64,000 nucleotides of DNA from Verrucomicrobiaceae bacterium (GTDB lineage: Bacteria > Verrucomicrobiota > Verrucomicrobiia > Opitutales > Intestinicryptomonadaceae), in the NCBI GenBank assembly GCA_015061955.1, contig SUVO01000005.1:1-64000 (forward strand), read 5' to 3'. The notes beneath the pieces were generated by a model. It made no database searches and had not been told where the DNA came from. It worked only from the letters and a program-made list of their open reading frames with translations. Position 1 is the stretch's first letter; each line of letters opens with the position of its first letter. This document shows positions 16,058-20,654 of this stretch, in pieces. Position numbers and translations under genes: made by a program.

Positions 16058-17557
16058 TTACTTTCTTCTACGATAAATTACAAAACTCAAAGCCAATGCA
16101 CCAAAGATTATTGCATATGTACTTGGTTCTGGAACTGCTGTGTATCCATAACTCGAGAAGTGAGAAACCACAAATGATAAAAATTCACCGTCATAGCTGA
16201 TTCCCGAAACATCATCAGCTTTGCTCCATTGACCACCTTCTGATTTATGGAAAATAGAGAAATCAGATGTCTTCAATGATGAATCACCAACATAGAAACT
16301 CAATACAACTGTATCGCCTTCTTCAATTTCAACATCAAATTCGTATGCGCCCATTTTTACAAAGTCAGAACCAACAGCAGATACAAGGTCAACAGTGTTT
16401 TCAACAACTTTATTTACGGTAGCGCTATCGGCGTTGAATGCCATTGAAACGCTTGTGTTTTCGTTGGTGGTAATTTCTACGATACCGTTATTTTCAACTA
16501 CTGTTGGCACTTCTACTCCGGCTTCTATTTGTTTAGATTCCGAAACTGTAAATACTTTGCCATTTAATGTTCCGCCATAAACATTGATTGTTCCGTTATT
16601 TGATAGAGTTCCAGTCAATACATCGTATGATTGACCACTTGTCAAAGCCGATGTTGCATAAATGTTGAAAACACCACCAGTTTCTATTGTTACATCAGAA
16701 TCAATTTGGTTTGCACCAGACATATTTAAAACTAATGATGCGTTATCTGCTATTTGAATATAATTGCCTGTTTTAACAGTAGAATTTGCCCCTATTGTAA
16801 ATGTACATGGATAATATTGAGTGCCATTATAAGCTGAATATTTACCACTTAGTTTGATATATCCACCAACATCCATCGACGAACCAGAATCTACTGTTAT
16901 ATTTGCTCCGATTAAACTGATTGCGCCATCTATACCATCTTCTGTTGTTTTAAAAGAAGAACCTCCTTCAAGATATATACCGGTATTAAACTTACCATAA
17001 TTTGTTGTTGCAGTTTCAAACGAAGACTTGTTCTTTAAAATCAACATAGATGTAGTTGGAGAAGCACTAGCACCTGTGCCACCAAAAGAACCTGTTTTCA
17101 AACTTGCACCATTGTCAAGAATTACAGTAGCACCATTATTATCCATTTGAGATACTTTATCAAAAGTTGCAGTTCCACCATTAAAGCTTACAAGCGACTT
17201 TGCTTGATGAATTGAAAGAGTTGAAGCTTCAACAGTCGAATTGTTAAAATATGCTTTACCATGATATTGGACATATAAACCCCCCGCAGTAATTTTATTA
17301 TTGCCCAAGAACGTCATTGATGAATCATCACCCATAATTTTTAACGTACTTGTAGCATTTACGTTTACATTTTCCCAAACGGAAACATGTATGTTATTAC
17401 TTGTTGTATTAGTTGCGTTAGTATCGAGAACAACCCACCCGTCTGAAATATCGCTACTAACAACATCAGTTGTATTGGCTGTTGACCACTCAACTCTTGC
17501 AAAAAGCGAAGTTGAGATGCTCGTTAAAGCTAATAATGTAATGATTGATTTATTCAT
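16058..17557 (-). CDS. PEP-CTERM surface protein, beta-helix-like
   Basis: 499 residues. The N-terminal signal peptide ends near SLFA (residue 20). The long middle is Asn/Thr/Gly-rich, with repeated short beta segments such as TAGGLYVQYHG and DNGASLKTG, typical of autotransporter-like beta-helices. The C-terminus is a clear PEP-CTERM sorting signal: VPEPSTYA, a hydrophobic helix (IIFGALALSFVI) and YRRRK. Established knowledge: the exosortase system cleaves at PEP and exports the protein to the cell surface or an extracellular matrix. No exosortase is in this window. The ATG follows AAAGGAGAG. Its promoter holds a nine-base homopolymer between -35 and -10 (17595-17625), suggesting switching. 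Ligand or partner unknown. Confidence 0.85.
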   Translation of the reverse strand: MNKSIITLLALTSISTSLFARVEWSTANTTDVVSSDISDGWVVLDTNATNTTSNNIHVSVWENVNVNATSTLKIMGDDSSMTFLGNNKITAGGLYVQYHGKAYFNNSTVEASTLSIHQAKSLVSFNGGTATFDKVSQMDNNGATVILDNGASLKTGSFGGTGASASPTTSMLILKNKSSFETATTNYGKFNTGIYLEGGSSFKTTEDGIDGAISLIGANITVDSGSSMDVGGYIKLSGKYSAYNGTQYYPCTFTIGANSTVKTGNYIQIADNASLVLNMSGANQIDSDVTIETGGVFNIYATSALTSGQSYDVLTGTLSNNGTINVYGGTLNGKVFTVSESKQIEAGVEVPTVVENNGIVEITTNENTSVSMAFNADSATVNKVVENTVDLVSAVGSDFVKMGAYEFDVEIEEGDTVVLSFYVGDSSLKTSDFSIFHKSEGGQWSKADDVSGISYDGEFLSFVVSHFSSYGYTAVPEPSTYAIIFGALALSFVIYRRRK

Positions 17558-17594
17558 AAAAAACTCTCCTTTTTTTGATTTAAGAAAGTAGCAA

Positions 17595-17625
17595 GTTATA
17601 CCCCCCCCCTAATTACCTTTGTCAA
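17595..17625 (-). promoter_or_regulatory. Promoter of the PEP-CTERM gene with a G9 spacer tract
   Basis: On the minus strand: TTGACA (17620-17625), a 19-bp spacer ending in nine G, then TATAAC (17595-17600). The plus strand shows this as C9 at 17601-17609. A spacer two bases over the optimum, made of a slippage-prone tract, is the layout of known phase-variable promoters (for example Neisseria porA). Loss of two bases would give a consensus 17-bp spacer. Confidence 0.65.
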
Positions 17626-17658
17626 GCAAAAAATTATACTTTTTATTCTATTTCTAAA

Positions 17659-17688
17659 AAAAGGCGTAAGATTTTACTTACGCCTTTT
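17659..17688 (-). terminator. Rho-independent terminator of the GH2 gene
   Basis: Perfect 12-bp stem (aaaaggcgtaag / cttacgcctttt), 6-nt loop and T7 on the minus strand, 17 bp after the GH2 stop codon. Confidence 0.9.
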
Positions 17689-17705
17689 AGAATTTGAAAA
17701 ACTAC

Positions 17706-20654
17706 TTATTTTATAAACTGCTTGAGCATATTTACTTGCCACTGCTGTTCGGGCTTGGGCGATTCAATCAAAGTTTTCAGTACCCATGCGTTCATATCGG
17801 AATTTCTTACTGCGTTATGCGAAAGACCACTTACAATCAACATGCCCTTACCGACCTTAACACGCATTACTGACGAGTACTCTTTAAGGTACATCAAGCT
17901 CGACAACGCCCTAATTGTATTTTCAGGCTTTGATGAAAGTTTTTCAACATCGAAACGATGACTATTTGCAAACATTGGAGCAAACGCCTCGCCACAGAAA
18001 TGCTCAGGAGCTACAACCGACAATGGCGAAGATTTTTCAACAAAATGTCCAACATAATTTGTATAGTCATTGCCACCAGCACGCCACCATTGCGACTTAT
18101 ATTTCATATCGTATCTAGGTAGGAATTTCTTTGGTGAAAACAACACGACAGTAGCACCTTTTTCGAGTGCATTTACAACATCTTCTGTTATTTCTTTTGC
18201 AAACATAACGTCGCCCGATTTCAAATTCTTACAATCGGCTGATGCTTTTTCCGTCCACTTACTTGGTACATATTCGGCAACATTTTTGCCTACAACAACG
18301 TTGCTTGCCTTGAGATTTTCAGCCTTAGGGAAAACATAGAAATTCCAGTCGTTTGCAACCGACATTTCTTTTGATTTTGCCGAAAAGCACAAAGTGTACA
18401 TCTGTGGAACATTGCTATTTTCAACAAACTTTTCTAAACCTTCAACCGAACCAAAATTAGTTATTTTGCCGTATCCAGAATGGATTTGTGGAAGATTAAA
18501 TTTCTTTAGAATCTTATCGCCACACTTCAACACAACTTCTGTATTAGGCGTAAATGCTACTGTTGAGAAATTTGAGATTTTGAAATTTGCCGAAATTTTT
18601 TCACCTGTATCGTAACCAAATTTCAACCCATTTTGCAATGCTACAACTGGCGAATTAAACTTGCGAATTTCTTCGGTTTTATAGCCTTCTTTCTGACGGA
18701 ACGCAAAGTCGAATATGCCATCTGAGCTTGTCCAATAATCTTGAATTAACCACCAATGATACCCTGTTATATATGGGTTTTTACGGATAGTTTCAATATT
18801 GTGCTTGTGGATTCTCAACATAAGTTTTTCACTTGCCAAGCCCCACTGCTCTGATTTATCAAGCATATTTTGTTTTGCGAGAGTTTCAACCGACTTTGTA
18901 AGCCAAAAAGATTTGAAGTTTGAGCCTTCAAAAAACTTAACAACACTTGGACGTGTAAACGTGCAGAAGTTTGCAGTTTCGTGCGAAATTACGGGCTTCA
19001 GCGGGACATCAACATCAACAGATTTACCCACAAATTTGTTTGTTATATGTTTGCAACGAACAGATTTTTTAGTGTCGTATTTACGTTCAAAATCTACAAA
19101 ATCTGCCCATTCATCGAACAAAACAAAATATAAATCTAACTCTGGTCTATCGTTTTTAGCATCGAGGATATATCCTTCCCACTCGCCATCGGTATCTACA
19201 AATAATCTATCTGGATCGAGCGAGCGAGTAGTCTTCATAAAATACGTCAAAAGTGGATTTTTACGTGCTGGTACGTCTTCGCCCATGTACAATTCGTTTC
19301 CACCAACCCACGCTAATATACAAGTGTAATTGCGATACTCTTTCACAGCTTGACGATAACGATCCCGATAAAAAGACATCGAACGATTGTATGAATTACC
19401 TGCTGGAGCTATATTACGCCAATGCTTTGTCCCTGGCATTTGCCACGGATACCCAATAGTAAATTCGGCATTTGGCATAATGCCTACTTCGTCGCAAGCC
19501 TCGTAATATTCTGGAGGCATAATCGTGCTATGATGACGAACATGATTAAAGCCCAATGCTTTAATTTTCTTTAGACGATCTATATACATCTGCTTATCGA
19601 AAGGCATTGAAAATTCTTTGAGATAAATATGGTCGTCGCCATATCCCAAAAGATAAACAGGCGCATTATTGAGCATTATTTTTGTGCGATTTACAAAACC
19701 TGCGCCCCAACCTTCTTTTATCTGAATACTTTTTATACCTTTACGCCATTTAAACGAATGCAATTCATTGCCTTCTTCATCTAAGAGCGACAATTTCAAA
19801 CTGTACAAATACGGATTATCTGGCGACCAATATTTTGCATTTTCAATATCTGCAACAACTACTTGCGTTTCGTATGAACGCCCAACCAAATTCTGTTTTT
19901 TAGAAGATACCTTTTTGCCATCGGCATCGAAAACTTCCAACATCAATTTGCAAGCCTTGTCATTTTTTGCCCCTGTTAAATTAAATATTCCAGCTTTGCT
20001 ATTTTTAGCATTAACAATTTTTGTTTCTGCAATAATTCTTGCAGGAATATTTTGTGCTGGAATTGGAAGTTTTGTGCGAATGTAAACATCGTCTAAACGA
20101 ATTTTTGGCAAACCCTCAAGATAAACGTGTCCGTACAAACCGCCCCAAGCTAAATCCATGTAATCGTTGAGCTGAGCAGCTCCCAACATAGCATCGAACT
20201 GATGACGTTGACGCGAATCTACATCTATACGAATCTTATTTTTTCCACCTATATTTAAATGTTTCTTTACAATTACTCTATGCGAACCTGTTAAACCTAA
20301 AACCTCGCCTATATATTTGTTGTTTACCCAAATTTTAGCATAGCGAGAAACACCTTCTATAACTAAATTTATATCTAAATCTTCCCATTCGTCAGGAACT
20401 TCGATTTCACGTTCGTATTTGCCAATACCAACAAAGTTATTGTGAACTTTATCGGTTGGTTTACCATAACCTTGCGCATCCCAAGCCCCAGGGACTCGAA
20501 TTTTTCCCGATTGAATAACGCCTCCTTCTGAATCGATTGTCGAAAAATTCCATTCCCCGTCAAGATTTACCTTTTGAGTTTCCATTGCGTGAATTGTTGA
20601 AAACATCAACAAAATACCCAACACTCCAACATAAAAAAATCTGCCAATATTCAT
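17706..20654 (-). CDS. Glycoside hydrolase family 2 enzyme (beta-galactosidase/glucuronidase/mannosidase type)
   Basis: 982 residues, in the size range of long GH2 enzymes. A signal peptide at residues 1-23 (ends TIHA) exports it. Domains: sugar-binding jelly roll (about 25-185, with LDGEWNF), immunoglobulin-like domain (about 190-305), a TIM barrel with GFNHVRHHS at 368-376, acid/base Glu454 (GGNELYMG) and probable nucleophile Glu559 (VISHET), and C-terminal beta domains from about 680. The reaction is retaining hydrolysis of a beta-glycoside; the sugar is not identifiable. It stands alone, 64 bp downstream of the TetR gene and ended by the terminator at 17659-17688. Confidence 0.85.
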   Translation of the reverse strand: MNIGRFFYVGVLGILLMFSTIHAMETQKVNLDGEWNFSTIDSEGGVIQSGKIRVPGAWDAQGYGKPTDKVHNNFVGIGKYEREIEVPDEWEDLDINLVIEGVSRYAKIWVNNKYIGEVLGLTGSHRVIVKKHLNIGGKNKIRIDVDSRQRHQFDAMLGAAQLNDYMDLAWGGLYGHVYLEGLPKIRLDDVYIRTKLPIPAQNIPARIIAETKIVNAKNSKAGIFNLTGAKNDKACKLMLEVFDADGKKVSSKKQNLVGRSYETQVVVADIENAKYWSPDNPYLYSLKLSLLDEEGNELHSFKWRKGIKSIQIKEGWGAGFVNRTKIMLNNAPVYLLGYGDDHIYLKEFSMPFDKQMYIDRLKKIKALGFNHVRHHSTIMPPEYYEACDEVGIMPNAEFTIGYPWQMPGTKHWRNIAPAGNSYNRSMSFYRDRYRQAVKEYRNYTCILAWVGGNELYMGEDVPARKNPLLTYFMKTTRSLDPDRLFVDTDGEWEGYILDAKNDRPELDLYFVLFDEWADFVDFERKYDTKKSVRCKHITNKFVGKSVDVDVPLKPVISHETANFCTFTRPSVVKFFEGSNFKSFWLTKSVETLAKQNMLDKSEQWGLASEKLMLRIHKHNIETIRKNPYITGYHWWLIQDYWTSSDGIFDFAFRQKEGYKTEEIRKFNSPVVALQNGLKFGYDTGEKISANFKISNFSTVAFTPNTEVVLKCGDKILKKFNLPQIHSGYGKITNFGSVEGLEKFVENSNVPQMYTLCFSAKSKEMSVANDWNFYVFPKAENLKASNVVVGKNVAEYVPSKWTEKASADCKNLKSGDVMFAKEITEDVVNALEKGATVVLFSPKKFLPRYDMKYKSQWWRAGGNDYTNYVGHFVEKSSPLSVVAPEHFCGEAFAPMFANSHRFDVEKLSSKPENTIRALSSLMYLKEYSSVMRVKVGKGMLIVSGLSHNAVRNSDMNAWVLKTLIESPKPEQQWQVNMLKQFIK

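Follow-up and report, generated by a model that had tools for sequence, protein, structure and literature searches.

Poly-G tracts in the promoters of PEP-CTERM genes of a Verrucomicrobiaceae bacterium: a probable set of phase-variation elements

What might a run of nine G, placed between the -35 and -10 hexamers of a promoter, do for the expression of a PEP-CTERM gene, i.e., a gene for a protein with an exosortase-type sorting signal? The question is raised by a 64,000-nucleotide stretch of DNA (called the window here; contig SUVO01000005.1 of assembly GCA_015061955.1) from a Verrucomicrobiaceae bacterium. On its minus strand, at 17595-17625, TTGACA, a 19-bp spacer ending in G9, and TATAAC follow each other exactly as read in a preliminary description of this DNA, and 37 bp separate TATAAC from the ATG of a 499-codon open reading frame (ORF). 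The answer favored here, with a probability of roughly 0.78, is that the tract is a contingency (phase-variation) element of the porA type within a regulon of about 27 promoters, and that the PEP-CTERM proteins behind these promoters are phase-variable. The preliminary description had considered a porA-like promoter and a phase-variable product probable from this one locus. That view is strengthened by the same promoter before 25 of 47 PEP-CTERM matches in the genome, and further by G8 or C8 runs in the signal-peptide codons of three genes, a 16-bp repeat in another, and a sibling locus assembled with both nine and ten G.

A recurrent promoter build before PEP-CTERM genes

The genome in question (G000) is a 2.43-Mb draft of 35 contigs, 93% complete. 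A strict pattern (TTGACA-N10-G7-N1-5-TANNNT) has 23 matches in it, versus none in 35 relatives, 13 of which belong to the same genus. The reversed pattern, used as a control, has no match in any of these 36 genomes, and reversed controls likewise stay at zero in the own genome in each of three scans with the strict and looser patterns. Runs of at least eight G occur in 37 instances, 29 of which have TTGACA 8-10 nucleotides (nt) upstream and TA directly downstream. These 29 instances represent about 27 loci, as two pairs of contig ends (C15/C26 and C7/C21) are counted once each, the merging of C7/C21 being the less certain. The downstream ORF encodes a PEP-CTERM protein at 25 of the 27 loci; the exceptions are on contig C15 (1237 amino acids) and at C24:9949 (1135 amino acids). 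Counted from the protein side, the family model TIGR02595 finds 47 matches at E <= 10, 42 of them with E <= 0.05. Two of the 47 are below the family cut-off (one of these among the 25 with a G-tract promoter), and a G8-G10 promoter, paired with the matches by hand, precedes 25 of the 47.

Markov models of orders 0-4, trained on the 64-kb window and scaled to genome size, predict 2.6-5.8 runs of at least eight G, versus the 37 observed. For runs of at least nine G the prediction is 0.4-1.1 genome-wide; in the window, the tract is the sole G/C run longer than six. At order 5, 21 and 6.8 runs are expected, respectively, values that are probably inflated by the window tract itself.

The 29 promoters are built alike. 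The run comprises eight (7 promoters), nine (12) or ten G (10), and adjoins the TA of the -10 hexamer in every case; spacers measure 17 bp (2 promoters), 18 bp (12) or 19 bp (15). The -10 hexamer is TAGCAT in 14 and TAGTAT in seven, with other TA hexamers, including TATAAC of the window, in the remaining eight. C stands directly 5' of TTGACA in 27 of the 28 promoters with enough upstream sequence. In the same 28, positions -8 to -4 before TTGACA hold a T run (17 promoters) or an A run (11), which might serve as an UP-like element in either form.

Among the other eight instances of at least eight G, three lie in signal-peptide codons of PEP-CTERM genes, two (C8:53610, C22:16678) are close to the start of a PEP-CTERM gene but lack a proper promoter, and no gene is attributed to the remaining three (C9:72397, C13:4055, C24:18193). 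The site at C8:53610 (L046:6111) is peculiar in that the PEP-CTERM gene follows GCTTGACATA-C8-TAATAAATTAGG, i.e., the usual -35 and then a C run, as if the spacer had been turned round; no good -10 was seen there, and no flanking inverted repeats within 600 bases. Another side observation concerns the starts of contigs C4, C9, C10 and C16 and the end of C23, where the intergenic DNA around PEP-CTERM genes is repeated and in part palindromic; this DNA may assist the recombination or spread of the genes.

The window locus itself (Table 1) has the homopolymer between -35 and -10 that characterizes porA/fetA-type promoters. Its product belongs to the PEP-CTERM proteins, as the preliminary description had it, with 21.1 bits against TIGR02595 (cut-off 16) and, slightly below the threshold of 20.7, 20.3 bits against Pfam PF07589; the N-terminal signal peptide was recognized by eye from the translation. 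Similar proteins occur in 13 of 18 relatives searched, the similarity being mostly over the C-terminal half. A single-sequence structure model is rich in beta-strands at low confidence (mean pLDDT 54.5), and a fold search with it gave no PDB match at E <= 0.001 (best E 0.03), so that no fold is claimed. Upstream, a stable hairpin (none of 200 shuffles was equally stable) with a T run follows the neighboring glycoside hydrolase family 2 (GH2) gene, and the G-tract promoter is therefore probably the PEP-CTERM gene's own. A simple promoter and terminator scan that considers only spacers of 16-18 lists neither the window promoter nor the hairpin terminator; it lists two weak promoters with their -35 side upstream of the hairpin. 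An invertible promoter was considered and rejected: no inverted-repeat arms of at least 11 nt flank the window promoter within 500 nt, and none of the four such pairs in 17200-18000 encloses it.

Table 1. Features of the window around the G-tract promoter (window positions)
Feature	Position	Strand	Remarks
-35 hexamer TTGACA	17620..17625	-	Read from sequence; the hexamer was the selection criterion for the 29 sibling tracts
Spacer AAGGTAATTA-GGGGGGGGG, 19 bp	17601..17619	-	G9 at 17601-17609 adjoins the -10 hexamer
-10 hexamer TATAAC	17595..17600	-	Read from sequence
GGAGAG, ribosome-site-like	17564..17569	-	Read from sequence
PEP-CTERM ORF, 499 amino acids	16058..17557	-	ATG at 17557, stop at 16058
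PEP-CTERM sorting motif PEPSTYAIIFGALALSFVIYRRRK, exosortase signal by family	16061..16135	-	TIGR02595 search
Probable GH2 terminator: hairpin (12-nt perfect arms) and T run	17656..17684	-	Fold z -6.7
GH2 protein, upstream neighbor (context)	17706..20654	-	

The build in relatives and in unrelated genomes

Promoters of this kind are found in three of the 13 same-genus species: one in G001 (G16, spacer 18), one in G009 (G11) and four in G013 (G9-G13, three of the four sites with a readable ORF). Their runs of 9-16 G lie in flanks that differ from those of the own-genome promoters. Signal-peptide-like ORF starts follow five of the six, the sixth (L261) being at a contig end, and the ORFs behind the G001 and G009 promoters continue into PEP-CTERM matches. 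With 60, 35 and 15 TIGR02595 matches (E <= 0.05) in G001, G009 and G013, respectively, the promoter is rare among the PEP-CTERM genes of these species. In G001, one of 12 fetched G-run sites fits the promoter build, and two other G9 runs stand 97 and 182 nt before PEP-CTERM ORFs with no -35/-10 pair. G003, another species of the genus (L200-L222), has many runs of G9-G28 (140 overlapping positions of at least nine G) and no match to the promoter pattern; the fetched runs occur in varied contexts, several of them TGTGTG-G9-AGAGAG. The reversed control of the loose-pattern scan gave one to three matches in some relatives. In a sample of 286 genomes from the class, which contained a single same-genus genome, a looser pattern produced 26 raw matches in the own genome and one to three in each of 25 others; the latter correspond to background level, because the reversed control reaches similar counts (up to three, in G304).

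Beyond the class, a scan of public genomes was evaluated from 80 of 116 matching stretches, a basis that may leave out the own species and from which no frequency can be derived. Eight genomes, chosen because a match was present, were then searched, and five of these hold sets of 4-24 distinct sites, with spacers mostly of 17-19: Alphaproteobacteria bacterium Emb289P3bin18 (24 sites in 0.8 Mb), Streptobacillus notomytis (23), Bacillota bacterium Lab288P3bin111 (16), a Clostridia bacterium (5) and a Lentisphaerae bacterium (4). In the remaining genomes (records of L130, L106 and L118), raw matches number four, one and three. Judged by sequence pattern, these sets show a repeated origin of the build, and not its frequency. 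Three unrelated small genomes (G320, G321 and G325; records of L086, L117 and L141) have 16-24 distinct TTGACA/T-G8+-TANNNT promoters each, and several promoters in Streptobacillus precede related proteins of about 177 amino acids with signal-peptide-like starts. A scan of viral sequences for the pattern returned two stretches.

Tract-length change and the competing explanations

The proposed mechanism starts with slipped-strand mispairing at replication, by which a G would be gained or lost. Each such event would shift the distance between -35 and -10 by a single base pair and thereby change the strength of transcription of the PEP-CTERM protein. If about 27 promoters of one build, 25 of them on PEP-CTERM genes, switched independently of each other, a clonal population could contain many combinations of surface proteins, which would presumably reach the surface via one of three exosortases (three PF09721 matches are above the cut-off, the best with 142.3 bits at C14:84850-85704). 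The benefit might be evasion of phage or host, or the switching of adhesion. Since a 17-bp spacer is reported to be strongest in tp0126 of Treponema pallidum (PMC7864442) and in porA, the window promoter, at 19 bp as assembled, would have little or no activity, and slippage by one or two positions would increase it. The data are as compatible with an optimum at 18-19 for spacers that contain a G run.

That spacing sets transcription is what we infer from the known cases, and that tract length changes in living cells, from several kinds of loci. Contigs C26 (at its end) and C15 (at its start) contain one and the same locus: 117 bases on the left of the tract and 27 on the right are identical, yet the run is G10 versus G9. 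The contig ends of C7 and C21 overlap by 35 bases, have G10 in both, and differ in the last base of C21; that they meet at a tract is only suggestive of a common locus. Three PEP-CTERM genes without the promoter (C9:72211, C9:74440 and C31:78527) carry G8 or C8 in signal-peptide codons and are in frame as assembled. On contig C34, the own-genome paralogue most similar to the window protein (51% identical over residues 222-499) has a 16-bp tandem repeat in 3.6 copies directly after the signal peptide (C34:49377-49434; L277:878-935); in the assembly, the reading frame of its signal peptide differs from that of the rest of the protein. This array has the top score among 44 own-genome loci scanned, the runner-up having a unit of 33 bp. 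All four genes show the hallmark of translational phase variation, a 5' coding repeat whose unit length is not divisible by three; in the window gene, the tract sits in the promoter and the 5' coding part has no such slippage repeat. A wider reading, in which we place slightly more belief than doubt, combines these loci: more than half of the exosortase-type proteins (25 promoter tracts, three signal-peptide tracts and one 16-bp repeat among 47 matches) would be under separate slippage switches, resulting in a combinatorial coat, and the same promoter invention (a -35, then a few bases and G8-G11 at the -10 or beside it, in total mostly 17-19 bp) would have arisen separately in several bacterial lineages, as a general means of building whole phasomes and more than single contingency genes.

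Several observations weigh against phase variation by these tracts. The G9/G10 difference at C15/C26 is a single pair and could be an assembler or sequencing error. Two PEP-CTERM ORFs (C22:106723 and C29:13677) are interrupted, and no long repeat was seen in them, so that out-of-frame genes alone are no proof of switching. MutS is present and intact, which gives no sign of a mutator background. As many as 22 of the 47 PEP-CTERM matches lack a G-tract promoter, and four of these genes (upstream regions of C18:9320, C18:119117, C22:110746 and C29:16274) share another promoter-like box, GGGTATTTGTAATACTATA-like, together with a PEPSTY signal. Spacers concentrate at 18-19, above the usual 17, and the bases flanking the tract are conserved among siblings as well, which slippage alone does not need. 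In the genus, the gene behind the G001 promoter has a stop in its signal-peptide region, nine of the 13 species have no match even to the loose pattern, and two overlapping loose-pattern matches in G010 were discarded as not promoter-like in appearance.

Conserved flanks are compatible with a fixed regulon too, in which a dedicated sigma factor or activator shared by PEP-CTERM genes would recognize a site with a G run of constant length. In this case, the GC before TTGACA, the AAGATTGTT-like spacer, the TTTGC-like bases after the -10 and the total spacing of 18-19 in 27 of 29 promoters would all be parts of one recognition site. The association with the type of sorting signal would fit as well: the promoter precedes 22 of 32 AEW/AQW genes and one of 10 STY genes, namely the window gene (Fisher p 0.002; counts by hand, excluding five PEP-CTERM matches whose type was different or not read). 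However, run length varies among the siblings (8, 9 and 10) and between the two assemblies of one locus, the relatives have 9-16 G in different flanks, and the G8/C8 runs or 16-bp repeat in the 5' coding part of siblings are most easily explained by frame switching. Moreover, a run of 8-10 G is expected to slip whatever reads it. A recognition site of fixed length is an unlikely explanation of the set.

Considerably less credit is due to the idea that duplication of PEP-CTERM genes merely carried one G-run promoter along, with no selection for switching. Common flanks among siblings and the repeated intergenic DNA near several of the genes would be expected in that case. However, the downstream ORFs are unlike in length and sequence, the genome has several times more long G runs than the models of orders 0-4 predict, the intragenic repeats of siblings are separate inventions, and the build recurs in unrelated genomes. 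Finally, miscalled runs or run lengths can be dismissed as a general explanation. The genome is a fragmented draft in which two contig-end pairs meet at tracts, individual tract lengths could be off by one, and a paper on Bifidobacterium breve cautions that database entries may give incorrect G-run lengths (PMC9187656). However, miscalling cannot account for 29 runs that all lie in one position between two promoter hexamers, and the other eight instances are little above the number expected by chance.

Implications and comparison with known switches

To our knowledge, the cargo and purpose of exosortase/PEP-CTERM systems are mostly unknown. If phase variation by G tracts is the correct reading, exosortase/PEP-CTERM sorting would be tied to slippage switching across a whole gene family, and a large share of the surface coat could probably be switched up and down by copying slips in G runs. 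Poly-G promoter switches could then form a genome-wide set that is found with one simple pattern, and the question can therefore be addressed in public genomes and metagenome reads.

The preliminary description had regarded a link between exosortase sorting and ON/OFF switching as new, which stands in part. The switch mechanism is of a known type, and phase variation of PEP-CTERM genes as such is not new, since genes with PEP-CTERM sorting domains are reported to be enriched near invertons in Akkermansia muciniphila (PMC11892184). The slippage promoter is the part that holds: the literature searched, with most subscription journals outside it, contained neither a report of slippage promoters in connection with PEP-CTERM or exosortase nor a set of such size. 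The Akkermansia invertons resemble the present case in that PEP-CTERM genes of a gut Verrucomicrobiota species lie beside phase-variable DNA; there, the switch is inversion between inverted repeats, whereas here it would be homopolymer length, with no flanking repeats at the window promoter. Together, the two cases would suggest that PEP-CTERM proteins repeatedly come under ON/OFF control, which would be expected if phages, host factors or competitors act on them. The genome paper on A. muciniphila describes PEP-CTERM genes, proposes mononucleotide slippage and counts 17 genes with long tracts (PMC3048395). A. muciniphila is a further example of a gut bacterium with PEP-CTERM genes and proposed slippage, although the passages on tracts name those in two capsule genes and do not connect PEP-CTERM genes and tracts.

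In pili of B. breve, also a gut commensal, G-run slippage controls covalently sorted surface structures (PMC9187656); the tracts are inside coding sequence and sorting is by sortase, whereas the present system has promoter tracts and exosortase-type targets. Closer in position are the tp0126/tpr genes of T. pallidum, with poly-G in surface-protein promoters and, in tp0126, the tract between -35 and -10 (PMC7864442). In tprL, the tract (7-11 G in vivo) partly overlaps the -10, and a different mode of action is argued for it; the proteins are of another class, and tract lengths were measured there, whereas here they are known from assembly alone. The nearest likeness is to porA and fetA/frpB of Neisseria, where poly-C or poly-G spacers are described whose length sets the -35/-10 distance and with it the transcription of a surface protein (PMC5320596). 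What distinguishes the present case from this model is one build at about 27 loci, with exosortase-type targets, in an unrelated bacterium.
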